This document shows positions 10,791 through 59,433 of a stretch of 64,000 nt of DNA, one piece after another. The stretch spans positions 62,001-126,000 of the forward strand of contig CANTFK010000949.1 of the NCBI GenBank assembly GCA_947646735.1, given 5' to 3'. Source of the stretch: Peronospora farinosa. Lineage: Eukaryota; Oomycota; Peronosporomycetes; Peronosporales; Peronosporaceae. A program made the position numbers and the translations under genes. The notes below the pieces were generated by a model. That model saw only the letters and a list, made by a program, of their open reading frames with translations, had not been told where the DNA came from and did not search any database. Position 1 is the stretch's first letter; each line of letters opens with the position of its first letter.

Positions 10791-11289
10791 ATTCGATCGG
10801 CCTTTCATCAGCACGATTGCGTTTCCGTCTCATACGACTAAGAATCTAACTCTCCGAATCCTCATCGGATCGAGCAGTTCACGGTTCGACTGCTGAAATA
10901 TCATTTGCGGTTTCCTCCACCTGTGTAGCACGTTCAAGGGCAGCCTCAGCTTCTAGCTGAACATCGGCAGCCTTGTTTACAGTCTAATTGAAATTGTTTT
11001 GGGAACCTAGGACGCCAGCATTACCGTCGCGAGGGCCCACCACCGCTTTTATATGCGAAAGGACAGGTACGCTCGAATGTAGACCGCATTGTAGATCGCA
11101 AGGACCCTCCCCGTGCAGTGATGCAGTCGGCATATGAGAATCGTGCAATTCCATCCGCGCGCAGGTACCGATTAAGTTGGCTTGAAGATACTTCCGAGCA
11201 AGATACGTGAAAACTCCGTTCCTCGCTTCTTCGTGACGTTCCATATGTTGCTCGGTCATACGATTCCATGGAGTCGGGCTTACTCCGAT

Positions 11290-11910
11290 ACGAGCGCGAG
11301 CGTGTATGTTCTCGTGATGAGCGAGAACGGTGAGACTATTGACGCCGTCGAGAACGAAAACGATGACGTGAGCGAGAAAGTCGTGGTTAATATATATCTT
11401 TACGATCATGAGAAGAGTACCTCGCCCCGAAGGAGTGGTTTTCGAACGTGTCGCTGCCCTGTGCTGATCATTTAGCGGATATCAACTCCTCTATCGCTAG
11501 TGGTATTGCCAGCGAGGTGCACTACGAATAACTGCAGTATTCCGTTCGGTCAGACTGTACTCATTCTTTGCTATCCGACCTCTTTTGCGCTCGCTGAGTT
11601 GACACTTAGCGATGTGTCGCCATTCGTCACGAGTTAGACGTGGCATCGAATCACAAGATTGGCTCCTTCGTTGACCTTGATGAAGCAGAGGCATTCCTCA
11701 TTCCAAGCATCCTCACACACTCTTTCGCGTAGCGCGCCGATGGAGTGATCGGCGCGAAGATCCTCTCGATAGGCGAGCCACTGTTGGAAACTGCTTCTGT
11801 CCTCGAGCATTCGATTCCAGCGTCGGATAAAAACGCACTTGGAACGTTGCAGGAATTCGTATGCAATATCTGCAAGAATCCTGCCGCGTAAACCGCGGAA
11901 AAGCCAAAGG
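11290..11910 (-). pseudogene. Antisense accessory frame of gypsy family I (copy 3)
   Basis: Runs opposite to pol. Minus-strand codons give FIRRWNRMLEDRSSFQQW, DLRADHSIGALRERVCEDAW and ECLCFI, then after a frameshift CDSMPRLTRDEWRHIAKCQ and, farther on, an Arg/Ser block (LSRSRHRFRSRRRQ). The copies in A and B have the same order. The TGA that splits A and B after SERDRS is absent here (SERKRGRIAK). A 65-codon alignment with copy A shows differences concentrated at third codon positions. Confidence 0.55.
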
Positions 11911-11938
11911 TAGTCCTAAATTATTTTCAGTGAGTCCG

Positions 11939-12046
11939 AATGTATAAGGAGTTGGTCCATCTCATGAATTCTTATACTCTCGCTGATGGTGTAATGTATA
12001 AGTAGTTGTTCCATCTCATAAATTCTTATATTCTCGCTGATGGTGT
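11939..12046. repeat. 54-bp tandem duplication
   Basis: Two adjacent 54-bp units (11939-11992 and 11993-12046), each starting AATGTATAAG and ending CGCTGATGGTGT, with about five differences. It lies between the antisense frame and the 3' LTR of gypsy copy 3. Confidence 0.9.
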
Positions 12047-12166
12047 TTGGTAATGATGCAGTGTTGGAATCCGTGTGTTCGGACTTTTCTTGATCGGGTT
12101 GTGAGCGTTGAGGTTTTTAATGTCAAGCACACACAATTGGTGAGTGCTGTTTTGAGAAGGGGGTGA

Positions 12167-16339: not shown

Positions 16340-17432
16340 CTCCTGACCGACGACTTCTTTTTAAAACCTTGACAACTGCGTGTTATGCTTCTCAGTCATC
16401 GTGTCCACGTTCCGAACATGCTACGTGACCACCACGGTCCAATCCTTCGGAATAAAAATCTAAATTTCTTAGTCTCATCGCTCTTGTCACTTTGAGAGCT
16501 GTCTTCCCACGTTTGCCGAGTGACTTTTTTTATTCTTGTACTCTATATATGGCGAGCCAAATACTACAATGTCGCTCAGCACAGGTATCTTTAAGGTAAG
16601 AATCTCGATTAAAAGACTCGTTATTCAGAATTTTTCCTTATTAGGTCTCCTGCTAAGGATATTTACTGCATACTTGGCAGGACTACCTCAAAACTCAAAA
16701 GGCAATTCACTAGCAAATATCATGCTGTGCACTATATACATGATAGTGCGGTGCATACGATCAGCTGTTCCATTACTAGACTAATTATTTGCCTCACTGC
16801 CCTGTCGTGCAACGCCATAATTTTTTTACAAATCATTCAGCGTTATATACTCTCCACCTCCATCAGTGCGTAAACGTGAATTTGACAATCAAACCGTCGC
16901 TCGAGCGCAGCTACAAACTGTTTACACTTCATGGTACCGACATCGTTGGTTTTCGCTGTAATAACATGGGAATGATTGGAATGATTATCGATAATTTGAC
17001 CATGTACCAATTTACATGGCGGTCGGTCAAGAGGACTCATCGTCCCTTTGAGGTCGGAACAAATTATCCTTCCATCACATCAATTGGCGAGCTTTCTACC
17101 GACAATTTTGCTTGATCATACATTTTGAGCTTGTTTACCGTAAGCTCAAGCCAAACAAACCTCACGCTTAGTATCCGTGATATTTATACCAGAGGCAGGG
17201 TGTCAAGCCATTTTGACAATCGTGTCATAACGCAAATGGCCCAGACGTCGATAATATTCTTTTAAATTTCCATAATGACCATCCAAATCGGATTTATTTA
17301 CTACGGATTGCGTCTGCAAGCAATTCCATAACGCCATCCATGATAAATCCACGTCCACGAAATATACCATCGTAAACCTTTGCCGAAAAACTCGCTATTT
17401 CCACAATTAACATCCATAACTTGCACGCCTCC
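16340..17432 (-). pseudogene. Ty1/copia pol remnant: gag-pre-integrase and integrase core
   Basis: Minus-strand translation in several frames gives YYRRLGHLRYDTIVKMA (gag-pre-integrase), AYGKQAQNV, ICSDLKGTMSPLDRPP (first catalytic Asp), MVKSNH-like core sequence, RIHV, HRTIM-like and VVFGSPY-EYK blocks. These are the normal copia integrase order. It continues the copia sequence at 25249-26261. The two halves are separated by gypsy copy A, and joining across one copy of the 5-bp duplication keeps the frame. Internal stops and shifts show it is dead. Confidence 0.85.
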
Positions 17433-17774
17433 TGTAACGGGGCTAGAACGTACCGCTACTAGCTTACACGTGCGCTTGAGGAAGACTCAAGCCCAAGTAT
17501 TAGGTATTAAGTAAATTTTAATCTGATTTTTATTTTGGTTTTAATTCGTACTAATTACGAAGATTTTAGTCGTAATAAATACGACAGTGTTCCCGCCTTT
17601 CGGGAACCACACAATTTCAGGCTGATTTATCATTGGTCCATATTGGGGACTTTAGGCCCAATAATAAACCAATAATAAATTACCACGCTGTGCCCGCTAT
17701 TCGGGCCCAGCACCTGCCTACACATGTAATTGTTTATTCATGTTAATACTATGTGTGTAATGTAGCCCATTACA
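17433..17774 (-). repeat. Gypsy copy A 3' LTR
   Basis: On the element strand it reads TGTAATGGGCTACATTACA at the start and ends GCCCCGTTACA, giving near 10-bp terminal inverted repeats (TGTAAYGGGC). Internal stem-loops: GTTCCCG/CGGGAAC at 17589-17607, CTTGAG/CTCAAG, and GTGCCCG/CGGGCCC. AT-rich blocks include AATAAA-like signals. Confidence 0.95.
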
Positions 17775-17787
17775 TCACCCCCTTCTC

Positions 17788-18855
17788 ATGACAGCACTCA
17801 CCAACCGTGAGTGCTCAACTGTCGAAAACCCTTCGCTCACAAACGAACAAGCAATGTCCGGAGACCCAAAACCCAATCCAGCAGGACGCCCAAGATACAT
17901 CAGCGGGAATGCATCAACCAGCATCATGGCGCGGCAGCTCATACCTTGGTCGCTGTACGACTTGTCCGGAGCTCACGCTCCGGACTCACTGGACATGATG
18001 CGGGAATACTTCCGCCGATTTCGAAAACTGCGCGGGAAAGGTCTTGATGGAATCGAGCATGAAGCTCTACAACGTTCTTGGTGCGCCTTCATCCGACGTT
18101 GGAATCGGATGCTCGAGGATGGTAGCAGCTTCCAACTATGGATCGCCAATCGAGAGGAACTTCGCGCCGATCATTCCATCGGCGCTCTTCGCAAAAGAGT
18201 GTGTGAGGATGCTTGGAATGAGAAATGCCTCTGCTTCATCCATGTAAATGAAGGATGCCGGTCTTGTGACTCGACTCCACGCCCAACTCATGACGAATGG
18301 CGACGACACATCGCTAAGTGTCAACTCAGCGAACGCGACCGAAGTTGAATTGCAAAGTATGAGCGAAGTCTGAGCGAACGGAGAAGCGCAGTTATTCGTG
18401 GTGCGCCTCGCTGGCAGCACCACTCGCGACAGCGGAGTCAATCTCCGCGGGATCATCAGCGCAGGGCAGCGACACGTTCGCTTGTCCGTCCTGCTTCGCG
18501 ATTCTCGCCTCGCAATCGTGATGTGTATTCACCGCGACGTTCTCGTTCACGGCGTCGTTCTCGTTCGCGACATCGTTCTCGTTCTGGTCATCGTTCCCGT
18601 TCCCGACAACGTGAATCTCCTTACCGCTCTCGTTTGTCACGAGAGCGTTCGCGTGCTCGCCCGCCTTTGAATAGTCCGACTTCGTGGCTTCATACGACAG
18701 AACCACATCTGGAACGTCACGAAGGAGCGAGGAACGTGGTTCCCATGTATCCTGCTCGGGAGGGAATCCAAGCCAACGTATTCGGTACCTACGCACGGAT
18801 GGAACCGCACGCTTCTCATGAGCCGACTGCAGTACAGGTTAGGGGGTTCTCGTGA
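17788..18855 (+). CDS. Antisense accessory ORF of gypsy copy A: C2HC zinc-finger-like plus RS-rich region (one in-frame TGA)
   Basis: Reads against gag-pol, starting 13 nt from the 3' LTR. The 17788 ATG is not kept in copy B, but the in-frame ATG at 17854 (MSGDPKPNPAG) is. Codons to 18345 encode a Trp/Arg-rich region and a CX2CX13HX3C motif (CRSC to HIAKC). A TGA at 18346-18348 interrupts. The same frame stays open to 18853 with an SR-like tract (RRSRSRRRSRSRHRSRS). Copy B has the same TGA; the older copy 3 lacks it. Codon-position differences against copy 3 suggest past coding constraint. No family is recognised. RNA binding is inferred only from composition. The RS part overlaps the chromodomain on the other strand. 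Confidence 0.5.
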
Positions 18856-18930
18856 CTCACAATGTGGTCTTCAATCCAGCGCACCTGTCCCTCCGCATCA
18901 ACAAGCGAAGGAGGGCCCTCGCGATGGTAA
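18392..18930 (-). pseudogene. Gypsy copy A chromodomain segment (pol C-terminus, frame-shifted)
   Basis: The element strand encodes LVDAEGQVRWIEDHIVSHE, then in another frame RRYRIRWLGFPPEQDTWEP and RDVPDVVLSYE, a typical chromoviral chromodomain that may guide integration through chromatin binding. A frameshift next to ENPLTCTAVGS splits the domain and is shared with copy B. Together with the shift near 19270 it disconnects the domain from integrase. The tail is Asn/Glu/Asp-rich low complexity, opposite to the RS tract of the antisense frame. Confidence 0.75.
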
Positions 18931-19231
18931 TGCGGGCTTCCTGGTTGCCCAGGACGATGTTGATCAGGCCGTGAACAGAGCTGCCGATGCTCGGCTGGAG
19001 GCTGAGGCTGCCAGTGAACGTGCTGCCCAGGCGGAGAAGACTTCGAGTGAGACCCGACAGTCGAACCGTGAACTGCTCGAGCGGATAAGGATTCTGGAGC
19101 GCCAGATGCTTGGTCAGGTTCAGACGGGATCGAGACCCCGCCCCATGTCATCGGCGCGTCGAGCGCGACGGGAAGGCCGTTCGACTTACGAACCCCTGAA
19201 GCCGGCGTCGGAGCCAAACCGTGAAGCGTAG
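18818..19231 (+). CDS. Second antisense ORF in gypsy copy A, coiled-coil (137 aa)
   Basis: Overlaps the end of the zinc-finger/RS frame by 38 nt in the +1 frame. It contains an Ala/Glu/Arg-rich heptad-like stretch (VNRAADARLEAEAASERAA, then NRELLERIRILERQMLG) and an Arg-rich tail. It lies opposite the proline-rich linker between integrase and chromodomain. Copy B keeps the first half, and copy 3 keeps a similar block (AADVQLEAEAALERATQ). Part of it may be a shadow of the minus-strand linker. Fusion to the preceding frame by frameshift is possible but unproven. Confidence 0.4.
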   Translation: MSRLQYRLGGSRDSQCGLQSSAPVPPHQQAKEGPRDGNAGFLVAQDDVDQAVNRAADARLEAEAASERAAQAEKTSSETRQSNRELLERIRILERQMLGQVQTGSRPRPMSSARRARREGRSTYEPLKPASEPNREA

Positions 19232-19246
19232 CCGGACGATATTCCT

Positions 19247-22200
19247 TCAGCCGCCCGACATAGAATGTCGGGTGAGTCGCAGTGAAGAGGGGACGTCGAG
19301 TGTATAAGCGTCGCCAATTGCCTTCAGAACCTTGAATGGACCGATGAAGCGTGGCGCGAGTTTACTCGCGCCCAGATTAGTGACCGCAGAATCCCTTAAA
19401 CCTTCCGTCGATAATAATACACGGTCACCTTCCTCAAACTTGCTCATGTTCTTTCGTCCATGTTTGTCAGCGTTATCCTTCTGTAGGTCTACAGCAGTTT
19501 GTAGTGCGTCGCGTACAAACCTGGTGATGGCTTGACGTTGGAGTATAAATTCCGACACGGCCATGTCATCAATTGGTCGCGCCGACTCAATCGGCGCGTA
19601 GTTGGCAGTAGGGGAACGCTTACCCGAAGACGGGTCAATCAATGTCTGCGCAGTCCATCGAGCTAATGGAGACGCCACGTCTGATGGCGTCAAAATGGCC
19701 GTCTTTGCCTTGGATCGTGTTACTGCGTTCGCGCTCAAAATACCGTGAGCTGCACTCGATCCTTGTTTATCACCTTTATCCCCCCCCAGAGTGGAGCCAC
19801 TAGGTGTTGTGGGTCGCCCCACGGCCAGGACAGTAGGAACACGAGGGTGACGAGCCGAATTTACAAAAAATGGCGTCAACCCTGTTGACGCGTGTACGGC
19901 GTTGTTGAGTGCGAACTCAGCGAGTGGTAAAAATGCACTCCAACTTGTAAATGACGTAGCATAACTCCGAAGAACATCTTCGAGGACTCGGTTTACGCGC
20001 TCGGTCTGCCCATCCGTTTCCGGATGGGCTGCCGTCGACATCAGCAGTTTTGTCCCGAGGAGCTCGAAAAGTGATGTCCAAAATGCGGACGTAAATCGCG
20101 GATCACGGTCCGAAACAATGCTTTCTGGAAGGCCATGATGACGGAACACCGCGTCGATGAAGTGCGCCGCGGTCTCTGCCGCGGTGACCTTAGCGTGAAC
20201 AGGCACGAGATGTGTCATCTTGCTGAATCTGTCAACAAAGACCAAGATGCCCGTTCGAGCTTGGCTATCGGGCGCAAGCCCGAAGATAAAGTCCATCGAA
20301 ACTGATCTCCAGGCCTCTGCTGCAATTGGCAACGATCGCAAGGGAGCCTGCGACGATAGAGATGGCTTCACACGCTGGCATATTTCGCACGTTCGGATCC
20401 AGTTGCGTACCCACTTATACATGTGGGACCAGAAGAAGTCTCGAGACACAGCCGCGAAATTCTTTTCGCGGCCTATATGGCCGCCAGCAGGAGCATCGTG
20501 ATACTCGTGGATGATTCTTGCACGCAAATCCATGTCGTTGGCGATCACCGTGCGAGGAGCTTCGAATTGGTCGATGCTATACAGAAGCAAATCGCCGTCT
20601 AAACTGTATCGATGAATATGATCGCGCTTGGTTCGGGATAAGGCTCCCAGGGCAGCATCTCTGGGAGCACGCAGATACTCGATAATGTCTGCATAATCTG
20701 AGTCAACCTTGTACGCTGCGACGATCTCATCAAATAAACACGGCTCGGGTGTAACCCGAGTTAAGTTCAGCGATACACACATTGCACATCGGTCATCATC
20801 GTCCTCTTCATCAGTAGCCTGGCGACTCAGAGCAGTCCGAGGATCGTAGTCAGGACGTCGTGACAAGGCGTCAGCGAGAATATTGGTCTTGCCTGGCTTG
20901 TAATGCACGACGAAGTTGTACTCAGAGAAGAATGAGAGCCATCGTGCCATCCGTTGGGACAGGTGTGAGCTCTTCATCGCTGTGCGCAGCGATGCATGAT
21001 CGGTGTACAAAGCAAACGTACTTTCACCAAGGAGATGCACGCGAAACTTGATGAGTGCATAGCGCATCGCTAATAACTCCTTGTCGTGAACCGGATAGTT
21101 CTTCTCAGCTGGCTTCATCTGTCGCGACCGATAACTCACGACTCGTTCACGGCCCTCATCATCAAATTGCATGAGGGCACAGCCGATTGCAAAATCACTG
21201 GCGTCGCAAACCACGTGGAACGGCTTGGAATCGTCTGGTAGGACCAGGACTGGCGCTGACGCTAGGCTCTTCTTTACTGCTTCGAAGGCTGCTTGGTGCT
21301 CGGGACGCCACAACCACGTGGCGTCTTTCTTCAAGAGTGACGACAAAGGCTGGATAGAACCAGCATAATCCTTGGTATACTTGTGCAAATAATTAGCCAA
21401 GCCGAGCCACTGGCGCAACTCCGTAGGGTTCTTGGGCGTGGGCCAAGAACAGATGGACGACACCTTCTCTGGATCAGCTCGAACTCCCGATTTACTCACA
21501 TAGCAACCTAACACCGGAATCTCCGGTGCACAAAAGACACACTTCTTGAGATTCGAGTACAACTTGTTGTCCCGCATAACTTGAAACACTTGCTTCAGGT
21601 GTTGAAGGTGAACTTGGACATCGTTGAGGTTGCCCTCGGCGCGACTATGGACGAAGATATCGTCAAAATAACTTAGGGCAAAGTTCCGAAGAGGTCTCAA
21701 CACTTGAGACACCATGCGATTGAAAGTGGCCGGAGCGTTCTTCAACCCTTGTGGCATTACCAGCCACTCCCATAACATGCCACTCGGGGTGCTCACCGCG
21801 GTAAGTGGGATATCGCTCGGTTGCATCAGAATCTTTTGAAAGCCATAGGTTAGATAGGTGGAACTGAAGATGACACTACCTGACATGGAATTCAGCACCA
21901 TGTCCTTCCTGGGAATTGGCGTTTGCGCAGGAATAGTGGCATCATTCAACTTATTGAACGCATGCACTATCCACCAGCCTCCCGTAGCCTTCTTCACGCA
22001 GAAGGTTGGACTCGAATGTGGTGAGATACTCTCCCGCACATGACCCGCTTTGCGGCGGCCTTCAAAGAATGCGTCAATAGCTTCGACTTGATCTCGAGGC
22101 AACGGCCACTGCCGTGTCACACAATACTTCGACCCTGGCACGAGATCAATCTCGTGCCGAACACCGCGGTCCGCAGGAAGTTCAGCCGGGATCTTGTCCG

Positions 22201-23845
22201 GGAGCACGTCTGCATACTCACGAGCAATGTCGTAGACGGGGTTACCAGACTCTCGCAGGGCCTCCCATGACTGTGATGCAAACCTTTCTTCACGCGCAGA
22301 CTTCGGCTCAGCGCTTTGAGAACGCGTCATATGCTCCTCGTTTGCCACGATAACCACCTCGTTGGTGATTAGACACACTTGTTCCACAGTGCCTCCCTTA
22401 AGGTCACGTAGGAAATGCTTCCAGGAAAGCCCTGGAAGACTTGTAATGGAAGACGCATTACGAGGAGGACTTTCGACCTCGATATATGGGCGCCTTTGTG
22501 GACTCCCTTCCACGTACACGATAGCGTGGACACATTCCAACGCTAAATTCTCGGTGCTGTTGTCCCCATCGTGCTTCGAGTCACTACTCGAAGCTGGCGA
22601 ACCGCAGTCAGGTGATAAACCATCACCCCCCTCTAGGCACTGGATGTCGTCATCCAAGATGCCGGAAACACTGGACGGGAGTACCCCAAACTCGACCGTC
22701 GACACTTGATGCGGGAGCTCCTGCTCGGCCGCCATAAACCCGCGTGGGAGCCCCTGCTCAACCACAGTATGCCCATGTGGGAACCTCGGTTCGACCACAG
22801 TGGGTGATGATGGGAACCCCGGTTCGACCATCATGCTCTCGCGTGGGGACTCTTGTTCGTCCACGTTGTACTCGTGTGGGAGCCCCTGCTCGACCACAAT
22901 ATGCCCATGTGGGAATCTCGGTTCGACCACAGTGGGTGATGATGGGAACCCCGGTTCGACCATCATGCTCTCGCGTGAGGACTCCTGTCCGTCCACGTCA
23001 CTCTCGCTGGCGAGCTCTTGCTCGTCGCCACAATGCCCTTGTGGGAGCCCCTGCTCGACCACAATAGGTGCAGATGGGAACCCCGGTTCAACCACTGCAT
23101 TCACGTGCGGGAACCCCTGTTCAACCGCATTAATGACGCGCGGGAACCCCTGTTCGACCGCGTCGTCCTCGTTGTCCTCTTCGCTCTGTAGCGAGGGGTC
23201 ACTGTCACTTGTGTCCCGAAGAACAGCACAAGCAGTGCAGAGAGGGCCATCGCTCGCTCTGTGCACCGCCAACGTCGTGGAATCGCGATCCACGACTGTG
23301 ACGTTTGGCCAGTCACTTGGAGATACCATGAGATGGGTAAACACTTCACTGACATCGAACTTGCGTCGATGTCTCACTGATCTGGCTAACCAGTCGATCT
23401 GGGGCTTATAACGTGCCAACCATGGCATGCCCAGTATGCAATCGAATGCATAATTCATCGCGATCACCAAGAAATCATCATTACTGCGAAAGCCATCAAA
23501 CGTATACGGCAACGACACTTCGCGCCGCGATACGCGGTGTGGTTTCCCGTCAGCCAACTTGACGACGACTTGGCCAGGTCCCTCACGGACCTGAATGCTG
23601 GGAGGCAGCATCGACAAACAAGATTCACGAAAGAAATTGTTTGTTGCTCCTGAGTCCAGGAGTGCTCGCAGAGGTCGCCGGACGCCGGCGACATGTAAAC
23701 TGACAATAATCAGACGTGAATCACCACTCGTAGTGGTGGCATTTAACCGTGCGCGTAGCGCAGGAGGACTGGAAGGTTGGGCTGCCACCGGGGGACCCGG
23801 ACCTCCGTTCCAACCAGTAGGGCGCCCTGCACCTACTGGTCCCAA
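19247..23845 (-). CDS. pol: Gypsy copy A Pol: protease, RT, RNase H, integrase (1532 codons)
   Basis: Polyprotein on the element strand. It opens at a TTG directly after a TAA and has no early ATG, so it should be made by a +1 shift from gag. Order: aspartic protease (DSGA 64-67), an 11-residue repeat array (about 229-375), RT ([15 protein letters not shown] 726-729), RNase H (D881, E923, D949), HHCC (C1153, C1156) and integrase D1185, D1246, E1282 in D,D35E spacing. RT motif A reads STYLTYGF, with Tyr at 664 where the family has catalytic Asp; a second usual Asp (667) is also Tyr. RT is therefore probably inactive. The 3' end shifts frame after [11 protein letters not shown] by a 1-nt deletion relative to copies B and 3, losing the chromodomain. 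Confidence 0.9.
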
Positions 23846-24881
23846 TTATTTCTGGGCGTGCGGACGGTACAGCGCTCTCATGATGGGCGTCTACTACTTG
23901 CACCGATAATGGGGCTGGCGCACGGCACTCTGCCGCGCGATGTCCTGGCTTGCGACAACGAAAGCAAACCATTGGACGCCCGGTGCGAGCGTCACCTCTA
24001 TGATGAAAGACGCGTCGCCGGTCGCCCGACGACTCAATAACGTCGATCTCCATAGGTTCTGGGCCAGAAGGCCGGGGAACGCTGACGACCGAGGGTTTGG
24101 CATAGGCCTTTGTGACCCTAAAGTCTTCACGGAGTGCGATGGCGAATGCCTTCTCCAATGTGGCAGGCTCGGCGCGCTCCAGCGATAAGCGGGTCTGCCC
24201 CTCACGCATACCATCCACAAAGACATTCACCTGTGTGTACATGTCCATGGGGTGCGTGATAATACACGACGCCAGATGCCTAGCCATCTGTACGTAGTCG
24301 CGCATCGCCATTTTACCCTGTCGCATCGACAGGAATCTTGATCGCACCAGTTTCTCCTCTTGTGGTGGCTCGAAGGCAAGACGGAGATCGTCCTGGATGG
24401 TATCCAAGGTGGGAAATGCGTGCTCGTCCACAACGAGTTTACCAAGGGCCCACTCCTTGGCCTTCCCGGTGAGGCGGGAAAGAAGAAAGTTGACCTTCGC
24501 CTGTGGAGCCTCAAGAAGTCTCGAGGCGATGGCGATATCAACTTCTCGGAACCACCGGTTCAGCGATAACCGGTCCTTACCTTCTCCAGAGTAGGAGGAG
24601 GTTTCCATCTTCACGGCCTCATTACGTGAAGGGCGCGAGGGAGTTAAGCCTCGCCGGTTGGATTCGGCGAGCTCGCGTGCCATAAACTCATGTATGGCGA
24701 GACGTTGCGCGTCAGGGGTCGCTGATCTCATCAGCGACGCGACGAATGCCTCTCCCGATATCGCCGCGAGGCGATTAAGGGCATCCCACTCAACACCAGT
24801 AAGATGGGGGAAGGTCGCGTGCTCCAGAAATAAGTCTGGAGCGTCAAAGTACGACGATTCGCTCATCCCAAACTCGGGCAT
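23721..24881 (-). CDS. gag: Gypsy copy A Gag (386 aa)
   Basis: Starts at an ATG (24881), 26 nt after the 5' LTR. A retrotransposon gag domain (about 95-250; [29 protein letters not shown]) is followed by one CCHC knuckle C306-X2-C309-X4-H314-X4-C319 that would bind element RNA. It overlaps pol by 125 nt, with pol in the +1 frame. It looks intact and could form capsids. Confidence 0.92.
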
Positions 24882-24907
24882 AGGAAGGACTACAAAGTGC
24901 TACCAGA

Positions 24908-25248
24908 TGTAACGGGCTAGAACGTACCGTCACTAGCTTACACGTGCACTTGAGGAAGACTCAAGCCCAAGTATTAGGTATGAAGCAAATTTAACTCTGA
25001 TAATTAATAATGTTTTAGTTCGTACTAATTACGAAGATTTTAGTCGTAATAAATACGACAGTGTTCCCGCCTTTCGGGAACCACACAATTTCAGGCTGAT
25101 TTATTATTGGTCCATATTGGGGACTTTAGGCCCAATAATAAACCAATAATAAATTACCACGCTGTGCCCGCTATTCGGGCCCAGCACCTGCCTACACATG
25201 TAATTGTTTATTTGTGTTAATGCTATATGTGTAATGTAGCCCATTACA
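24908..25248 (-). repeat. Gypsy copy A 5' LTR
   Basis: 341 bp, collinear with the LTR at 17433-17774. It ends (element strand) in GCCCGTTACA, followed by TCTGGTAGCACTTTGTAG where the primer-binding site is expected. I could not match that to a particular tRNA. Confidence 0.95.
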
Positions 25249-26261: not shown

Positions 26262-26593
26262 TGTAACGGGACTAGAACATACCGTCACCAGCTTACACGC
26301 TCGCTTGAGGAAGAATTAAGCCCAAGTATTAGGCATTAAGTAAATTTAACTCTGATAATTAATAATGTTTTAGTTCGTACTAATTAAGAAGATTTTAGTC
26401 GTAATAAATACGACAGTGTTCCCGCCTTTCGGGAACCACACAATTTCAGGTTGATTTATCATTGGTCCATATTGGGACCTTTAGGCCCCAATAATAAATT
26501 GCCACGCTGTGCCCGCTTTTCAAGCACATCACCTGCCTACATATGTAATTGTTTATTCATGTTGATACTATGTGTGTAATGTAGCCCATTACA
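26262..26593 (-). repeat. Gypsy copy B 3' LTR
   Basis: 332 bp. It differs from its partner at 33785-34116 at about seven positions, all within the first 95 nt in + coordinates. The remaining 237 nt or so appear identical. Confidence 0.93.
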
Positions 26594-26672
26594 TCGTCCC
26601 CTTCTCAAGACAGCACTCTACAACAGTGAGTGCTCAACTGTCGAAATTCCATCGCTCACAAACGAACAAGCA

Positions 26673-27656
26673 ATGTCCGGAGACCCAAAACCCAATCCAG
26701 CAGGACGCCCAAGATACATCAGCGGGAATGCATCAACCAGCATCATGGCGCGGCAGCTCATACCTTGGTCGCTGTACGACTTGTCCGGAGCTCACGCTCC
26801 GGACTCACTGGACATGATGCGGGAATACTTCCGCCGATTCTAAAAACTGCGTGGAAAGGTCCTTGATGGAATCGGGTATGAAGCCCTGCAACGTTTTCGG
26901 TGTGTCCTCGTCCAGCGTTGGAATCGGATGCTCGAGGATGGTAGCAGCTTCCAACTATGGCTCGCCAATCGAGAGGAACTTCGCGCCGATCATTCCATCG
27001 GCGCTCTTCGCAAAAGAGTGTGTGAGGATGCTTGGAATGAGAAATGCCTCTGCTTCATCCATGTAAATGAAGGATGCCGGTCTTGTGACTCGACTCCACG
27101 CCCAACTCATGACGAATGGCGACGACACATCGCTAAGTGTCAACTCAGCGAACGCGACCGAAGTTGAATTGCAAAGTATGAGCGAAGTCTGAGCGAACGG
27201 AGAAGCGCAGTTATTCGTGGTGCGCCTCGCTGGCAGCACCACTCGCGACAGCGGAGTCAATCTCCGCGGGATCATCAGCGCAGGGCAGCGACACGTTCGC
27301 TTGTCCGTCCTGCTTCGCGATTCTCGCCTCGCAATCGTGATGTGTATTCACCGCGACGTTCTCGTTCACGGCGTCGTTCTCGTTCGCGTCATCGTTCTCA
27401 TTTTTGACCACGTGGATCTCCTTACCGTTCTCGCTCATCACGAGAGCGTTCGCGTGCGCACCCGCATTGGAATAGCTCGACTTCGTGGCTTCATAAGACA
27501 TAACCACATCTGGAACGTCACGAAGGAGTAAGGAACGTGGTTTTCATGTATCCTACTCGGGAGGGAATCTAAGCCAACGAACTCGGTACCTGCGCGCAGA
27601 TGGAACCGCACGCTTCTCATGAGCCGACTGCAGTACAGGTTAGGGGGTTCTCGTGA
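26673..27656 (+). pseudogene. Antisense accessory frame of gypsy copy B, interrupted
   Basis: Collinear with the zinc-finger/RS frame of copy A, from MSGDPKPNPAG to VRGFS. It has an 18-nt in-frame difference in the RS tract, a TAA near 26841, the TGA shared with copy A (27165-27167) and further stops in the RS part. The zinc-finger block CRSC to HIAKC is unchanged. The coiled-coil frame follows at 27619-27852. Confidence 0.5.
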
Positions 27657-27795
27657 CTCACAATGTGGTCTTCAATCCAGCGCACCTGTCCCTCCGCATC
27701 AACAAGCGAAGGAGGGCCCTCGCGATGGTAATGCGGGCTTCCTGGTTGCCCAGGACGATGTTGATCAGGCCGTGAACAGAGCTGCCGATGCTCAG

Positions 27796-30700
27796 CTAGA
27801 GGCTGAAGCTGCCAGTCAGCGTGCTACCCAGGCGGAGATAGACTGCGAGTGAGAACCGGCGGTCGAACCGTGAGCTGCTCGAGCGGATAAGAGATTCTGG
27901 AGCGCCAGGTGCTTGGTCATGTGCAGACGGGATCAAGGCCGCGCCCCATGTCATCGGCGCGTCGAGAACGACGGGAAGGCCAATCGACTTACGGACCCCT
28001 AAAGCCGGAATCGGAGCCAAACCGTGAATCGTAGCCGAACGAGTTTCCTTTAGCCGCCCGACGTAGAACGTCGGGTGGAGTCGCAATGAAGAGGGGACGT
28101 CGAGTGTATAAGCGTCGCCGATTGTCTTTAGAACCTTAAATGGACCGATGAAGCGTGGCGCGAGTTTACTCGCGTCCAGGTTAGTGACCGCGTGAATCCC
28201 TCAAATCTTTTGTAGATTTTAATACACGATCACCTTTCTCAAACTTGCTCATGTTCTTTCTGCCATGTTTGTCAGCGTTCTCTTTCGGTTGATCTGCCGC
28301 GGATTGTAGTGCGTCGCGTATAATCCGGGTGATGGCTTGACGTTGGAGTATAAATTCCGATACAGCCATGTCATCAATTGGTCGCGCCGACTCAATCGGC
28401 GCGTAGTTGCCAGTAGGGTGCATGCTTACCCGAAGACGGGTCAATCAATGTCTGCCTAGTCCATCGAGCTAAAGGATATGCCACTCATGTGACGTCAAAG
28501 AAGGAGACTTTGCCCTAGACCGGGTTACTATATTGGCGCTCAAAATACCGTGAGCTGCACTCGATCCTTGTTTATCACCTTTATTTTCCCTCCAAAGTGG
28601 AGCCACTAGGTGTTGTGAGTCGCCCCACGGCCAGGAGAGTAGGAGACGAAGGTGGCGAGCCGATTTCACAAAAAATGGCGTTAACCCTGTTGACGCGTGT
28701 ACGGCGTTGTTGAGTGCGAACTCAGCGAGGGGTAAAAATGCACTCCAACTTGTGAATGACGTAGCGTAACTTGGAAAAATGTTTTCGAGGACCCGGTTCA
28801 CGGGCTCAGTTTGCCCATCCGTTTCCGGATGGGCCGCAGTCGACATCAGCAGGTTTGTCCCGAGCAGCTCGAAAAGTGACGTCCAAAATGCAGACGTGAA
28901 TCGCAGATCACGGTCCGAAACAATGTTTTCTATAAGGCCATGATGACGGAAAACCGCGTCGATGAAGTGCGCCGCGGTGATCTTAGCGTGAACAGGCACT
29001 AGATGTGTCATCTTGATGAATCTGTCAACAAAGACCAAGATGCCCGTTCGAGCTTGGCTATCGGGCGCAAGCCCGAAGATAAAGTCCATCGAAACTGATC
29101 TCCAGGCCTCTGCTGCAATTGGCAACGATCGCAAGGGAGCCTGCGACGATAGAGATGGCTTCACACGCTGGCAGATTTCGCACGTTCAGATCCAGTTGCG
29201 TACTCACTTATACATGTGGACCAGAAGAAGTGTCGAGACACAGCCGCGAAATTCTTTTCGAGGCCTATATGGCCGCCAGCAGGAGCATCGTGATACTCGT
29301 GGATAATTCTTGCACGCAAATCCATGTCGTTGGCGATCACCGTGCGAGGAGCTTCGAATTGTTCGATGCTATACAGAAGCAAATCGCCGTCTAAACTTAT
29401 CGATGAATATGATCGCGCTTGGTTCGGGATAAGGCTCCCAGTGCAGCATCTCTGGGAGCACGCAGATAATCGATAATGTCTGCATAATCTGGATCGATCT
29501 TGTACGCTGCGACGATCTCGTCTAATAAACACAGCTTACGTGTGACCCGAGCTAGGTTCAGCGATACACGCATCGCACATCGGTCATCATCGTCCTCGTC
29601 ATCAGTAGCCTGGCGACTCAGGGCAGTCCGAGGATCGTAGTCGGGACGTCGTGACAGAGAATTAGCGAGAATATTAGTCTTGCCTGGCTTGTAATGTACG
29701 ACGAAGTTCTACTCAGAGAAGAATGAGAGCCATCGTGACATCCGTTGGGACAGGTGTGGGCTCTTCATCGCTGTGCGCAGCGATGCATGATCGGTGTACA
29801 AAGCAAATGTACGTTCACCAAGGAGATGCACGCGAAACTTGATGAGTGCACAGCGCATCGCTAATAACTCCTTGTCGTGAACCGGATAGTTCTTCTCAGC
29901 TGGCTTCATCTGTCGCGACTGATAGCTCACGACTCGTTCGCGGCCCTCATCATCAAATTGCATGAGGGCACAACCAATTGCGAAATCACTGGCATTGCAT
30001 AACACGTGGAACGGCTTGGAGTCGTCTGGTAGGACCAGCACTGGCGCTGACGCCAGGCTCTTCTTCACTGCTTCGAAGGCTGCTTGGTTCGAAGGAGCCA
30101 CGACCACGTGGCGTCTCCTTCAAGAGTGACGACAAAGGCTGGATAGAACCAGCATAATCCTTGGTATACTTGTGCAAATAATTAGCCAAGCCGAGCCACT
30201 GGCGCAACTCCGTAGGGTTCTTGGGCGTGGGCCAAGAACAGATGGACGACACCTTCTCTGGATCAGCTCGAACTCACGTTTTACTCACATAGCAACCCAA
30301 CACCGGAATCTCCGGTGCACAAAAGACACATTTCTTGAGGTTCGCGTACATCTCATTTTCCCGCATAACTTAAAACACTTGCTTCAGGTGTTGAAGGTGA
30401 ACTTGGACATCGTTGAGGTTGCCCTCGGCGCGACTTTGGACGAAAATGTCGTCAAAGTAACTTTTAGCAAATTTCCGAAGGGGTCTCAACACTTGAGACA
30501 CCATGCGATTGAAAGTGGCCGGAGCGTTCTTCAATCCTTGTGGCATTACCAGCCACTCCCATAACATGCCACTCGGGGTGCTCACCGCGGTGAGTAGTAT
30601 ATCGCTCGGTTGCATCAGAATCTGGTAAAAGCCATAGGTTAGATAGGTGGAACTGAACATGACCCTTCCTGACATGAAATTCAGCACCATGTCCTTCCTG

Positions 30701-32640
30701 GGAATTGGCGTTTGCGCAGGAATAGTGCATCATTTAACTTATTGAACGCATGCACTATCCACCAGCCTCCCGTAGCCTTTTTCACGCCAAAGATTGGACT
30801 TGAATGTGGTGAGATGCTCTCACGCACATGACCCGTCTTGCGGCGGCCTTCGAAGAATGCGTCAATAGCTTCGACTTGATCTCGAGGCAACGGCTACTGC
30901 CGTGTCACACAATACTTCGACCCTTGCACGAGATCAATCTCGTGCCGAACACCACGGTCCGCAAAAAGTTCAGCCGGGATCTTGTCCGGGAGCACGTCTG
31001 CATACTCACGAGCAATGCCGTAGACAGGGTTACTAGACTCTCGCAGAGCCTCTCATGACTGTGATGCAAACCTTTCTTCACGCGCTGACTTTGGATCAGC
31101 GCTTCGAGTACGCGTCATATGCTCCTCGTTCGTCACAGTAACCACCTTGTTGGAGATCATACACACTTGTTCCACAGAGCCTGCCTTAAAGTCACGTAGG
31201 AAATGCTTCAAGTAAAGCCCTGGAAGACTTGTAATTGAGGACGCGTCGCAAGGTTGACTCTCGACTTCAATATATTGGCGTCTTTATGGACTCCCTTTCA
31301 CGTACACGATAGCGTGGACACATTCCTACGCTAAATTCTCGATGCTACTGTCCCCATCGTGCTTCGAGTCCCTACTGGAAGCTGGCGAACCGCAGTCAGG
31401 TGATAAACCATCACCCCCCTCTAGGCACTGGATGTCCTCATCCACAATAGAAGGGAGTAGCCCAAACTCGACCGTCGACACTTGATGCGGGAGCTCCAGT
31501 TCGGTCGACATAAACCCGTGAAGCCCCTGCTCAACCTCGGTTCGACCACAGTGGGTGATGATGGGAATCCCGGTTCGACCATCATGCTCGCGCGTGGGTA
31601 CTCCTGTCCGTCCATGTTGTACTCGTGTGGGAGCCCCTGCTCAACCACAATATGCCCCTGTGGGAACCTCGGTTCGTCTACAGTGGGTGATGATGGTAAC
31701 CCCGGTTCGACCATCATGCTCGCGCGTGGGTACTTCTGTCCGTCCATGTTGTACTCGTGTGAGAGACCCTGCTCAACCACAATATGTCCCTGTGGGAACC
31801 TCGGTTCGTCTACAATGGGTAATGATGAGAACCTCGGTTCCACCATCATGCTCTTGTGGTGGGGACTCTTGTTCGTCCACGTCACACTCGTTGGCGAGCT
31901 CTTGCTCGTCGCCACAATGACCTTGTGGGAGCCCCTACTCTGCCACAATAGGTGCAGATGGTAAATTCGGTTTGATCACTGCATTTACGTGCGGGAACCC
32001 CCGTTTAATTGCGTGAATGACGCGCGGAAACCCCTGTTCGACCGCGTCGCCCTCGTCGTCCTTTTCGCTCTGTAGCGAGGAGTCACTGTCACTTGTGTAT
32101 CGAAGAACAGCACAAGGAATACAGAGAGGGACATCCCTCGCTCTGTTCACCGCCAGCGTCATGAAATCCCGATCCACGACTGTGACGTTCGGCCAGTCAC
32201 TTGGAGATACCATGAGATGGGTAAACACTTCACTGACATCGAACTTGCGTCGATGTCTCACTGATCTTGCTGACCAGTATTTTTGGGGCTTATAATGTGC
32301 CAACCATGGCATGCCCAGTATGTAATCGAATGCATAATTCATCGCGATCACCAAAAAATCATCATTACTGCGAAAACCATCAAACGTGTATGGCAACGAC
32401 ACTTCGCGCCGCGATACGCGGTGTGGTTTCCCGTCAGCCAACTTGAAGACGACTTGGCAAGATCCCTCACAGACCTGAATGCTGGGAAGCAGCATCGATA
32501 AACAAGATTCACGAAATTATTCGCTGCTCCTGAGTCCAGGAGTGCTCGCAGAGGTCACCGGACGCCGGCGACATGTAAACTGACAATAATCAGACGTGAA
32601 TCACCACTCGTAGTGGTGGCATTTAACCGTGCGCGTAGCG
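27796..32640 (-). pseudogene. Gypsy copy B pol, multiply frame-shifted
   Basis: Fragments of every pol domain are recognisable: protease DSGA at about 32530, an 11-residue repeat array with three 132-bp units (31552, 31684, 31816), RT ([26 protein letters not shown]), RNase H (DASDFAIG lies in NASDFAIG form), integrase ([20 protein letters not shown]) and HPTFYVGRL near 28070. At least six frame changes or stops occur. The RT motif A Asp is Tyr, as in copy A. Confidence 0.9.
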
Positions 32641-33784: not shown

Positions 33785-34116
33785 TGTAACGGGGCTAGAA
33801 CGTACCGTCACTAGATTACACGCTCGCTTGAGGAAGACTCAAGCCCAAGTATTAGGTATTAAGTAAATTTAACTCTGATAATTAATAATGTTTTAGTTCG
33901 TACTAATTAAGAAGATTTTAGTCGTAATAAATACGACAGTGTTCCCGCCTTTCGGGAACCACACAATTTCAGGTTGATTTATCATTGGTCCATATTGGGA
34001 CCTTTAGGCCCCAATAATAAATTGCCACGCTGTGCCCGCTTTTCAAGCACATCACCTGCCTACATATGTAATTGTTTATTCATGTTGATACTATGTGTGT
34101 AATGTAGCCCATTACA
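33785..34116 (-). repeat. Gypsy copy B 5' LTR
   Basis: 332-bp partner of the LTR at 26262-26593. On the element strand it begins TGTAATGGGCTACATTACA and ends GCCCCGTTACA. The right boundary abuts the RT of the family II element with no duplication. Confidence 0.93.
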
Positions 34117-35712
34117 GAACACGGCTACCATTCCGGCGTCAAATGCCGATCTCGCGGAAAGATGTCTTGTTAAATTACATTAGAAAGTCAGCTTTCTTTT
34201 CCGCGTTGGATCCGAAGGATGGCTACTATCAAAATTTCATAAATAAAAATACTACAAAAAATTAATGAAATAAAATTTTTAAGAGATACTGATGCAGCCA
34301 AATCGGCAGTTAGCACCGCAAGCGGTATGCTGTGGGAGTGGCTTGTGATGCCACAAGGGTTGAAAAAATGCTATGGCAACATTCAACCGAGTGGTGGCTC
34401 ACGTGATGCGTCATCACCGTGCCTACGCGCCCCATTACTTTAACGATGTATTCGTGCATATTAGGGCGGAGGACGGTCTGAGCGCAATAGAGTCGCAAAA
34501 GCGTCATTTAGACGCTGTGTTGCAGACTCTGGGTGACGCCCAATTATACGCTAGCTTACAAAAGTGTGTAATAGGGGTCCCCGCGATACCTGTACTAGGC
34601 TGCATCGTAGGTGCACATGGTGTACGAGCAGACCCAGAAAAGGTAAAGGCTGTAAAGGAATGGCCAGTCCCACGACATGTGAAGGATCTGCGCCAATTGC
34701 TTGGGCTCGCTAATTACTTGTATATGTACAGCAAGAATTATGCGGATCAGACTAAGCCATTGTCTGACCTTCTAAAAAAGGATGCAGAATGGACTTGGTG
34801 TAAGAAGCAAGAAGATGCGTTCACATCAGTGAATCAATCTCTTGTATAGGCACCGGTCTTGGCATTACCAGACGCGGATAAGCCCTTTAGCGTCGTCTGC
34901 GATGCAAGCAATTTTGCAATCGGCAGCGCGCTCATGCAGAAGGATGACAACGGCGTTGACCGTGTCATTTCTTATCAGTCTCGGCTTTTAGAAGCTGCCG
35001 AGCTGAATACCCTGTGCATGACAAGGAGCTACTTTCAATTAAGTATGCCCTTGTGAAGTTTCGGGTGCACCTCTTGGGCACCGAACCTTTTGTGGTTTAT
35101 ACGGATCACGCATCACTGCGGACCGCTATAAATTCACCTTACCTCTCGCCGAGAATGGCAAGATGGCTAGCATTCTTCTCTGAATTTAATTTCAAAGCTG
35201 AATATAAGCCGGGTAAGTCGAATGTCTTGGCTGACGCGTTATCGCGCAGACCAGACTTCGAGGCAAGACACCAAGATAGTGTGTCTCGTGCAAAAGCACA
35301 AGTTGAGTCGTCAACATTTGCAGCCATGAAGGCCTACCATGTGACGAGCTCAATGGCCTCCGATATAAAGGAGTGCTACAGTCAGGACGAGCATTGTCGC
35401 CTGCTGTTGGATAATTTTGGTGGACGAAAGGTTACCCTTCCGTCGCACCTCCAAGCGAAACTAAATCGCTTTAGTTACAGTGATGGCCTGTTATGGCATA
35501 AACTGTCACCCTGTGATCCCTTTAGAATCTATGTCCCTCATGACACAGATCTCAAGCTAATGATAATTTTTACGAGTGCCATGATGCTCCATCTAGTGGG
35601 CATCTGGGACGTGAAGAGACATTCTTACGAGTGTCAGAGAAATTTTGGTGGCCCCACCTATATCGGTGGGTGGCCAACTGTATTCGCTCTTGCGAAGAGT
35701 GTCAGCGCATAA
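34117..35712 (+). pseudogene. Family II pol: RT and RNase H, frame-shifted
   Basis: RT: SALDPKDGYYQ (catalytic Asp kept), an AT-rich insertion of about 40 nt near 34234-34278, then [15 protein letters not shown], a frame change in an A-run, and HYFNDVFVHI, where the YxDD motif is YFND. RNase [37 protein letters not shown] and [16 protein letters not shown]. Frame changes near 34370, 34850 and 35010 show decay. Confidence 0.85.
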
Positions 35713-37244
35713 ATCCTGCGCCTTCGAACAGTGCGCCACTGAAGCCACTGCCGATTCCAACTGAATGTTGGAAGTCGGTCAGTTTGGACTTCATGTTTGG
35801 CTTACCGCCTGACCATAAAGGCAGGACGGGGCTCGTCGTCTTTGTAAACAGGCTGAGCAAGATGGTGCATTTGGCACCATGTAGCACCAAGATCTCAGGA
35901 AAAGAGGCTGCCCTCTTGTTTCTGGAATACGTGTATCGACTACACGGGATGACCGAGTCCATAGTATCGGACCGGGATCCGCGTTTTACGTCGGGTTTTT
36001 GGCGACATGTGTTCGAGCTGCTGGGTAGCAAGCTCCACATGTCAACAGCCAATCATCCCAAGACCGATGGCCAAACAGAACGGGCCAATCGAGTCGTGGC
36101 GGATGTGTTTCGTACAATAGCGACTCCCAAAGAATGGAGCAAGCAATTGCCATTCGTGGAGTTCGCTATTAATAACAGTGTTCACGCCAGTACGGGTGAA
36201 ACACCGTTTTACATTAACGGACTGCGTCATCCTCGAACGTCAGTCTCGTTTGTACAGATCCCGAGTCTTAGTGGAGGAGGGCCCCTCACTTCGCTCGGTG
36301 CGAATGCCAAAGAGGGACAAGTTTGCCCTAGTGACACTGCTAATTTAGCAGTGGTCACGACACCTATAGGTGTCACAGAGGAGGCACGGCAAGAAATGCC
36401 AGTGCTTCTTGACGATGACACTATCATGTTGTCAACAGCGTCGACCCATGAACGACCTCTTGGAGGCGTCATAGGCGAGCTGGATGCTAAAAGCGTGAGC
36501 GAAGCTCAGCGCTTTGTGGATGAGCGATTAGCCATCACACGTAAAGTCCGTGACGCGATGGCAAGCGCACAGGACATGCAAAAACAATATGCAGACCAGC
36601 ATGGTCGCAAAAACAATGAACACTTTAGTGTGGGGGACAAAGTGCTATTAAGTACTGCTACCCTACCTAAACATGCAATCTCTGTACTACCTGGTGGTAC
36701 TACTAAGCTATTGCCCCGATTCATTGGGCCCTTTACAGTGGTTGAAGAAGTTAGAGACCTAAATTATAGGCTCACTCTCCCACCGTATATGAAGACGCAC
36801 CCCGTATTTTACGTGGGTCGTCTGAAACGGTATGTTGATCCAGAAGAGATCACATATCCGCATCAGTCTAACGAGACCGATGGTGACGTCGACTGTGAGT
36901 CGAGCGTCGCGGCCGATCAGGCGACGAGGAAGCCGAGAGGCTCCCCGTATACGAACGAGGAGATAGAGGACTCGGCGATCGAGGAGGACTCCGCGCTTGA
37001 CGCGGGTCTCTCATCACCAGTCGCTCTAAATGGTCCAAACGGGTCTCCAGGCGGTCTTACCCGTGACGATCCCTCGTATTTACAAAGCGTAGATCCCAAG
37101 TCAGTCTCGAGACTTGACTTATACGATCAGCCACCTCTTTCTTCAGCGCAGCGTTCTTTGCTTGCGACTGAACGACAACAGGATAAGCAGCCGCGAATAG
37201 TAAGGCGTAATAGCCGCTCCTATCGGTCGCTACCTGATTGGTGA
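35631..37244 (+). CDS. Family II integrase-containing frame (537 codons)
   Basis: Open frame with CX2C of the HHCC zinc site (RSCEECQR), then SLDFMFGL, SDRDPRF and DGQTER, giving the D,D35E triad. It continues with FAINNSVHASTGETPF and a C-terminal domain ending HPVFYVGRLKRYVD. The tail is acidic, then Ser/Arg-rich (RIVRRNSRSYRSLPDW), and lacks a chromodomain. It overlaps the preceding frame, so the start codon is arbitrary and it should be read as the end of pol. One oddity is FVNRLSK, where FVDRFSK is usual. Confidence 0.85.
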   Translation: MSEKFWWPHLYRWVANCIRSCEECQRINPAPSNSAPLKPLPIPTECWKSVSLDFMFGLPPDHKGRTGLVVFVNRLSKMVHLAPCSTKISGKEAALLFLEYVYRLHGMTESIVSDRDPRFTSGFWRHVFELLGSKLHMSTANHPKTDGQTERANRVVADVFRTIATPKEWSKQLPFVEFAINNSVHASTGETPFYINGLRHPRTSVSFVQIPSLSGGGPLTSLGANAKEGQVCPSDTANLAVVTTPIGVTEEARQEMPVLLDDDTIMLSTASTHERPLGGVIGELDAKSVSEAQRFVDERLAITRKVRDAMASAQDMQKQYADQHGRKNNEHFSVGDKVLLSTATLPKHAISVLPGGTTKLLPRFIGPFTVVEEVRDLNYRLTLPPYMKTHPVFYVGRLKRYVDPEEITYPHQSNETDGDVDCESSVAADQATRKPRGSPYTNEEIEDSAIEEDSALDAGLSSPVALNGPNGSPGGLTRDDPSYLQSVDPKSVSRLDLYDQPPLSSAQRSLLATERQQDKQPRIVRRNSRSYRSLPDW

Positions 37245-58853: not shown

Positions 58854-59433
58854 GGGTGGAAAGAGTGATGGTCTTTGGACGAACACGGTAAAAGTTGAAG
58901 TGAAGAATGTTGTTGTTGGGGGGTACAGAAGTTTTGTGTATCGAATTGATTGCTCAATCGATTCACATCAATCATGTCTTAGATGTTGTAATCATTCTCC
59001 GATGGATTCAAGATTTTATCCATCGGATAATGTACACGGCAAAAAAAAATCGAGCTTGAAGAGTCGCACCATCAACCACGTCTTATGTTGCGCTATCATC
59101 TGCCTATTTTAGTGTACCGACCTCTGTCAGTTTTGAAGTAGAGGGACAGCAGAGATATCAGCAGTCCCTCCACTTCATGTTAATCCTTACATTAACTCAT
59201 ACAACAATGTAAAGCAGTTGAGATAAAGTCGGTTCTTCATACTCCATCTCGACGTGTACGAGTCGAGAAAAACAATAAGAATATATAGAAATTGTAGAAG
59301 AAAGTAGTCTCAAGAGTCACAACGTTGTAACAATAAGAATCATTTCTTTGTAAAAAAATGCTGTTGCTACTGCATGCAACAAGAAAAACATAGCAGTCTT
59401 TGCTCTCTTCTCTTTTCGTCGCATATACGCAAC
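58854..59433. promoter_or_regulatory. Shared divergent promoter region, MDH (-) and GPCR-PIPK (+)
   Basis: About 580 bp separates the two translation starts in head-to-head orientation, so both promoters should lie here. I do not see a convincing oomycete initiator match. Short inverted sequences (ATCGATTCACATCAATCA, then GATGGATTC and ATCCATCGGAT) occur near 58955-59025. Confidence 0.45.

Follow-up and report, generated by a model that had tools for sequence, protein, structure and literature searches.

A long open reading frame runs on the strand opposite gag-pol of an LTR retrotransposon in the window, the 64,000-nucleotide stretch of Peronospora farinosa DNA analysed here, and this raises the question of whether the frame encodes a protein of the element and what such a protein might do. 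The host element is a Ty3/gypsy chromodomain element, in which protease, reverse transcriptase (RT), RNase H, integrase, SH3_Tf2-1 and chromodomain were all recognized by Pfam. The features of copies A, B and C are collected in Table 1. In pol, between protease and RT, there is a tandem repeat of 132-nt (44-codon) units, at 22650-23213 and 31533-31964, and the unit number differs between copy A and copy B. The + strand near copy B carries a fragment of another gypsy pol at 34960-37244 (RNase H, integrase, SH3), for which tblastn with the antisense protein found no partner. A long ORF at 59308-62475 combines a PIP5K domain with a weak 7TM match, the GPCR-PIPK architecture typical of oomycetes.

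Table 1. Positions of the element and antisense gene features in the window.
Feature	Position	Strand	Remarks
Copy A, orientation	LTRs 17432-17774 and 24908-25248	-	element on minus strand
3' LTR of copy A	17432..17774	-	343 bp; 94.2% to 5' LTR
Putative polypurine tract (PPT), 13 nt	17775..17787	-	TCACCCCCTTCTC on +; directly before antisense ATG; presumed to be the PPT
Copy A antisense ORF, 5' part: all-helical N-terminal domain	17788..18348	+	186 codons; ends at in-frame TGA 18346-18348
Four-cysteine motif C-X9-C-X7-C-X2-C	18202..18267	+	candidate metal site
Same frame after the stop: Arg-Ser tract (about 18394-18660) and disordered linker	18349..18852	+	opposite pol tail and chromodomain
Antisense C-terminal part, copy A, second frame via small indel	18839..19231	+	tblastn frame change at residues 351/352
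Long C-terminal helix	about 18953-19114	+	residues 390-441 in L005 model
pol stop codon, copy A	18392-18394	-
pol 3' end: chromodomain (about 18689-18793) and Asn-Glu-rich tail	18392..18838	-	Pfam Chromo E 3.9e-07
pol segment, frame-broken in copy A: Tf2-1-like SH3 end and long linker	18816..19361	-	faces antisense C-terminal helix
Copy A pol: protease, RT, RNase H, integrase, SH3	19247..23845	-	Pfam
gag with CCHC knuckle	23721..24899	-	Pfam Retrotrans_gag, zf-CCHC
5' LTR of copy A	24908..25248	-
Copy B LTRs	26262-26593 and 33785-34116		97.9% identity
Copy B antisense gene, degraded	26610..28031	+	tblastn
Copy C antisense gene	10897..12095	-	diverged element, opposite orientation, about 74% nt to L005

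An earlier sequence-only reading had described a long antisense frame with a CX2CX13HX3C motif and an Arg-Ser tract at 17788..18855, and all of these are in place in copy A. The frame is present over that span, but it contains one in-frame stop and the gene continues past 18855: in copy A the + frame is open over 17761-18348 (195 aa, stop 18346-18348), the same frame is open again over 18349-18855, and after a frameshift near 18840 the gene ends at about 19228-19231. A 13-nt pyrimidine-rich run separates the ATG at 17788 from the LTR edge at 17774. The further copies that had been placed at 26673-27656 (copy B) and 11290-11910 (copy 3, our copy C) are real, but their extents are longer (Table 1).

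A genome search of the 46.85 Mb assembly, in which 150 of 612 candidates were scored and all 150 matched, puts the copy number at 150 at least. Its oomycete nature is borne out by 22 matches to elicitins, a family that gave no match in any of 14 control genomes. We aligned 70 distinct copies, made up of 30 loci from this search (window copies A and B included) and 40 further regions. The gene is an unbroken single ORF of 444-493 aa in 20 of these copies, and the ATG is kept in 68. Several copies (L005, L008, L014, L022) have the end of the pol frame at locus position 2108, so that the antisense gene and pol overlap by about 830 nt, that is by pol's last 278 codons (linker, chromodomain and tail), while antisense codons 1-202 lie beyond the pol stop and have no pol overlap. 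The location first given, between pol and the 3' LTR, is thus right for the N part, but the C-terminal part lies opposite the pol end, its Arg-Ser tract, linker and terminal helix being overprinted on the pol tail, the chromodomain and the SH3-chromodomain linker. In this register, antisense codon position 1 is opposite pol position 1, antisense 2 opposite pol 3 and antisense 3 opposite pol 2. The Arg-Ser tract varies in length at antisense offset 769 by 18-nt steps (copies L004, L015, L023, L037, L040, L006, L028 and L041), which are in frame for both genes.

Stop codons were counted in the 70 copies with the other frames of the same copies as control, since ranking the copies by similarity to the antisense protein lowers the stop count of this frame. 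Per 100 codons, the antisense frame had 0.22 stops in the N part, where 41 of 70 copies were stop-free, and 0.18 in the overlap part (47 of 70), compared with 0.17 in the overlap and 0.16 beyond it for the pol frame. The remaining frames of the N part and overlap contained 1.46-5.77 stops per 100 codons and were stop-free in none of the copies. A check on stop rates, which the sequence-only reading had proposed for its own claim, therefore came out in its favour. Upon synonymous resampling of pol (5000 draws), an equally open overlap was obtained in 0.7%, and among 5000 Markov sequences a stop-free N part occurred in 0.16%. Indels with a length that is a multiple of 3 made up 5/5 of the shared ones versus 8/48 of the singletons, all five shared indels being inside the overlap, where pol also requires frame preservation. 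The openness of the antisense frame is not due to chance.

Selection was estimated by codon maximum likelihood (ML) on 27-30 sequences, with four frames fitted per region and the remaining two minus frames compared in pairs only; the omega values also reflect the neutral decay of inserted copies, by which they are brought closer to 1. For the N part, an omega of 0.55 (2dlnL 48.0) was obtained in the antisense frame, in comparison with 1.38 for the pol register, 1.35 for +1 and 1.47 for +2, as expected of the constrained antisense accessory gene that had been proposed. The Arg-Ser tract gave 1.01 for the antisense frame and 0.78 for pol. In the chromodomain stretch, the antisense omega was 1.68 and that of pol 0.65 (2dlnL 11.3); the +2 frame, which has its wobble column in common with pol, was also low (0.58). 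For the C-terminal part the order was reversed, with 0.77 for the antisense frame (2dlnL 4.4) and 1.75 for pol.

The six frames were also compared in 12 pairs of copies, which are not independent, as sequences recur among them. For the N part, the antisense value was lower than those of four of the other five frames in 12/12 pairs; the fifth, the minus frame that shares the antisense wobble position, had values of 0.34-0.60 and did not exceed the antisense value in 4/12. This competing minus frame looks constrained in pairs but holds 543 stops and is stop-free in 0/70 copies, and it does not explain the pattern, as had been argued beforehand. Pol was below the antisense frame in 11/12 pairs for the chromodomain part, and the antisense frame below pol in 12/12 for the C-terminal part, where in the pair L075/copy C two other frames (0.49 and 0.56) were lower than the antisense value of 0.77.

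The distribution of differences over codon positions points in the same direction. A count made by hand in the earlier work, on 18061-18255 against copy C, was reproduced over its 195 positions, with 8, 4 and 18 differences at positions 1, 2 and 3 (18/30 at position 3, binomial p 0.0025). Variants common to at least 4 copies fell on antisense positions 1/2/3 as 11/14/24 in the N part (binomial p versus one third 0.017), 8/14/16 in the Arg-Ser tract, 4/11/5 in the chromodomain stretch (pol wobble p 0.038), 5/5/13 in the C-terminal part (p 0.019) and 9/25/5 in the pol-only part (p 8e-5). Singleton variants were even in the N part (74/70/69) and in the pol-only part (75/86/81), whereas those of the chromodomain stretch (49/43/31) and of the C-terminal part (55/37/34) favoured position 1. 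Purifying selection acts on the antisense frame, strongly in the N domain and less so in the C-terminal part. The constraint alternates along the gene: it lies on the antisense frame in the N part, on pol at the chromodomain and, more weakly, on the antisense frame again in the C-terminal part, with little on either in the Arg-Ser tract.

These results bear on two explanations that dispense with an antisense protein. The frame could be a by-product of pol coding on the opposite strand, and it does face pol over the whole overlap and follows pol's constraint, not its own, in the chromodomain stretch. However, its best-constrained codons stand beyond the pol stop, outside pol's influence, for which we rejected this explanation; the omega values of the C-terminal part and the rarity of an equally open frame among the pol resamplings also speak against it, and we regard it as hardly credible. 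The antisense transcription could also matter as RNA, through dsRNA, silencing or transcriptional interference, with the ORF incidental. The accessible part of a plant review (PMC7264820) raises the possibility that antisense RNAs inhibit retrotransposition, and in P. infestans small RNAs map mostly to transposable elements, mainly LTR elements, according to the available portion of PMC3522703. An RNA role predicts no codon-position pattern, though, and as the sole role it is contradicted by the codon selection of the N part and by amino-acid conservation across genera, which makes it very unlikely.

Conservation across genera was followed at the protein level. Two protein searches, in which only the best word-sharing candidates were scored, returned at least 26 homologues, 19 named and 7 without a name. 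The named ones come from Phytophthora capsici, P. ramorum, P. idaei, P. infestans, P. fragariae, P. rubi, P. nicotianae and P. megakarya, from Peronospora matthiolae and P. destructor and from Hyaloperonospora arabidopsidis, and are annotated as hypothetical, uncharacterised or unnamed. No homologue outside Peronosporaceae is among the named matches listed, a taxonomic limit that is not firm. Among the matches listed, Peronospora effusa (93%) and P. farinosa (91%) have the closest pol proteins, which suggests a Peronospora or a near relative as the source of the DNA.

We then asked of these proteins whether one DNA can encode both the antisense protein and the pol C-terminus in the observed frame relation. 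Each compatible codon scored +1 and any other -2 on the best diagonal, for 27 antisense proteins and 120 pol proteins (those listed of 373 found), i.e. 3240 pairs. With shuffled pol the maximum was 17 (mean 9.2), while real pairs scored up to 278. All 27 antisense proteins were above the best of the 3240 shuffles and 21 reached 40; the other six, which include P. infestans P0009 (score 18), passed narrowly with 18-27. Of the 120 pol proteins, 52 reached 40 and 73 exceeded 17. Exact chain consistency was found for 245/245 codons in P. idaei (P0008 with P0038), 292/299 in P0001 with P0029, 113/113 in P. fragariae (P0010 with P0059), 154/165 in P. ramorum (P0006 with P0032) and 80/80 in P. destructor (P0016 with P0063, both listed on a 16284-base contig). 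The third frame relation peaked at 26 and the second at 115. Each of the top twelve pairs of the second relation involves P. fragariae or P. rubi models. Most of these models score in the expected relation too, at other points along their length, and we take them, short of proof, to be frame-shifted. As judged by protein-level joint coding, the antisense-to-pol arrangement is thus shown to exist also in Phytophthora, Peronospora and Hyaloperonospora.

A quick tree was built on the non-overlapped part of pol, from 97 relatives holding that part and our own copy, with many weak forks (49/93 open). It contained 38 positive rows (37 scoring at least 40, and our own copy), 18 intermediate ones (18-39) and 42 negative ones. 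All 38 positives are gathered in a single group (47 rows; SH-aLRT 88) that otherwise contains 8 intermediates and 1 negative. The tree required 2 changes without the intermediates and 9 with the intermediates taken as not positive (shuffled mean 30.3), which fits one gain and some losses, and the negatives may be too distant for detection. Sister pols such as P0070, P0074, P0087 and P0109 also have long linkers between SH3 and chromodomain (174-210 aa where measured). Joint coding, which needs fairly close relatives, detected no antisense partner for them, and a more diverged antisense gene may be hidden in the sister families, one of which includes Globisporangium polare.

A further explanation to be considered is a host gene that was captured once, has since travelled with the element and serves the cell instead of the element, as the Arg-Ser tract, the helical domain and the coil resemble those of host nuclear proteins. 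Pol nevertheless faces the gene at each of 80 distinct places (81 entries, as one place was retrieved twice), drawn from the at least 150 matches and copy C. The family range of the named homologues and the clustering of joint-coding-positive pols on the tree also count against a captured gene, an old capture being compatible with all of these findings, and we consider this origin unlikely.

The antisense protein itself was examined by structure prediction. The N domain is predicted to be all-helical (model of residues 40-205, mean pLDDT 77). The full-length L005 model is poor (pLDDT 50); residues 205-387, which include the Arg-Ser tract, have a pLDDT under 50, as for a tract predicted to be disordered, and a helix follows at residues 390-441. 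The motif C-X9/10-C-X7-C-X2-C is present in 67 of 68 own copies and in 16 of 26 homologues, 22 of which hold the region. The CX2CX13HX3C motif is found in 64 of 68 own copies but in only 4 of the 22 homologues with the region, and a C2HC finger was therefore rejected as a family-wide feature; the zinc-finger-like motif that had been put forward as that of the protein is peculiar to its own family, and the four-cysteine motif is conserved instead. Searches of Pfam, PDB sequences and folds gave no match of weight for the function of the antisense protein. Alanine_zipper (best E 0.00025, under its cut-off) and REST corepressor 1 (E 0.14) were taken as coil resemblance and set aside. Arg-Ser dipeptides are present, though no RRM is among the Pfam families listed, so that the protein does not qualify as an SR protein. 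The RNA binding suggested earlier may be a property of the protein, with the Arg-Ser tract showing no constraint at codon level.

A helical N domain with a cysteine motif, and a basic disordered tract that could bind RNA, would also suit a structural or particle factor, gag-like or env-like, instead of a regulator. The element already has a gag with a CCHC knuckle, however, and antisense coding would uncouple the product from gag-pol; the fold searches give this possibility neither support nor exclusion, and it seems improbable to us.

The best explanation of the locus (probability about 0.9) is therefore a third protein gene, antisense to gag-pol, that opens at the inner end of the 3' LTR and extends into pol. 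That it is a protein-coding antisense accessory gene of the element we regard as close to certain. As only 13 nt lie between the LTR and the ATG, the antisense mRNA would start in or beyond the 343-bp LTR, which would either hold the promoter or be read through; from this geometry, the LTR may double as antisense promoter. Expression driven from the LTR side, as suggested earlier, is compatible with this spacing, a matter of geometry. The make-up of the product, with its helical N domain and possible metal site, Arg-Ser tract and terminal coil, suggests a nuclear, basic and self-associating protein, which might act in trans, either on the splicing or export of the element's own RNA or on transcription from the LTR, in a role that may be likened to that of retroviral Rev or HBZ, the protein being a member of neither family. 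A nuclear regulatory role is mildly favoured. The fuller proposal, of a lineage-wide, overprinted, trans-acting nuclear Arg-Ser regulator of Peronosporaceae that is expressed from the 3' LTR inner edge, shares the constraint with pol segment by segment and has its retroviral counterparts in HBZ or Rev, stands somewhat short of an even chance. RNA handling rather than transcription control would be a rather doubtful choice.

Because this genome alone holds at least 150 matches and relatives occur in three genera, the family allows selection to be estimated for the two opposite strands of one DNA segment. The joint-coding test finds antisense overlaps from protein databases alone and could be applied to all retroelement proteins. 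The Phytophthora "hypothetical proteins" of this antisense family are most likely retrotransposon genes and not host genes.

The gene can be compared with known antisense genes of LTR elements, of which Boty with brtn in Botrytis cinerea is reportedly the subject of Zhao et al. 2011. In the accessible parts of the sources, brtn is, like the gene described here, an additional antisense gene of a gypsy element (PMC7264820, PMC8365987, PMC4227169), and the Boty gag-pol lists a CHROMO domain, as does our host element (PMC4227169). Boty differs in being from a fungus and, in those parts, no pol overlap is mentioned for it; the likeness is one of description. The plant review, as far as its available text goes, covers additional antisense ORFs, with Boty of Botrytis and Sclerotinia as the non-plant case, and calls the roles of retroelement antisense genes unknown (PMC7264820). 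A literature search by title and start of abstract, with most subscription journals outside it, found no antisense gene of a Phytophthora or other oomycete retrotransposon.

The plant aORF-3R genes (maize Grande gene23, rice RIRE2, Silene Retand) are likewise antisense genes between pol and the 3' LTR in the text available (PMC7264820, PMC11963269), where they are described as retained in most copies and across species, and the maize Grande product as nuclear, gene23 being transcribed from an upstream promoter (PMC7264820). The oomycete gene is similarly antisense to gag-pol at the pol/3' LTR end and kept in most copies, with conservation like that of other element proteins (70 copies, ranked by the antisense protein), but it differs in overlapping pol; the word "overlap" occurs in the main text of neither PMC7264820 nor PMC11963269. 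According to the accessible part of PMC11963269, the Retand antisense ORFs are mostly TRP28 (PF04195, Transposase_28), a family absent from the six Pfam families listed for 18 members of ours at E 0.5, and the Retand post-pol spacers measure 2.9-6.6 kb, compared with about 600 nt here, where some 830 nt of the gene overlap pol.

HTLV-1 HBZ and HIV-1 ASP are also antisense genes of LTR elements in the available portions of PMC8622228, PMC6950816 and PMC9822710, and for HTLV the review text at hand places an antisense promoter in the 3' LTR (PMC7264820). HBZ is described there as a bZIP protein (PMC6950816, PMC9822710), while no bZIP family is among the Pfam families listed for the antisense proteins, which have only a C-terminal helix. 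HIV-1 ASP is complementary to the sense gene env, as stated in the accessible part of PMC8622228, whereas the overlap partner here is the pol linker, chromodomain and tail. Antisense accessory genes as such are already known; what the present case adds is a protein family and a lineage that are both new, together with a long overlap with pol.
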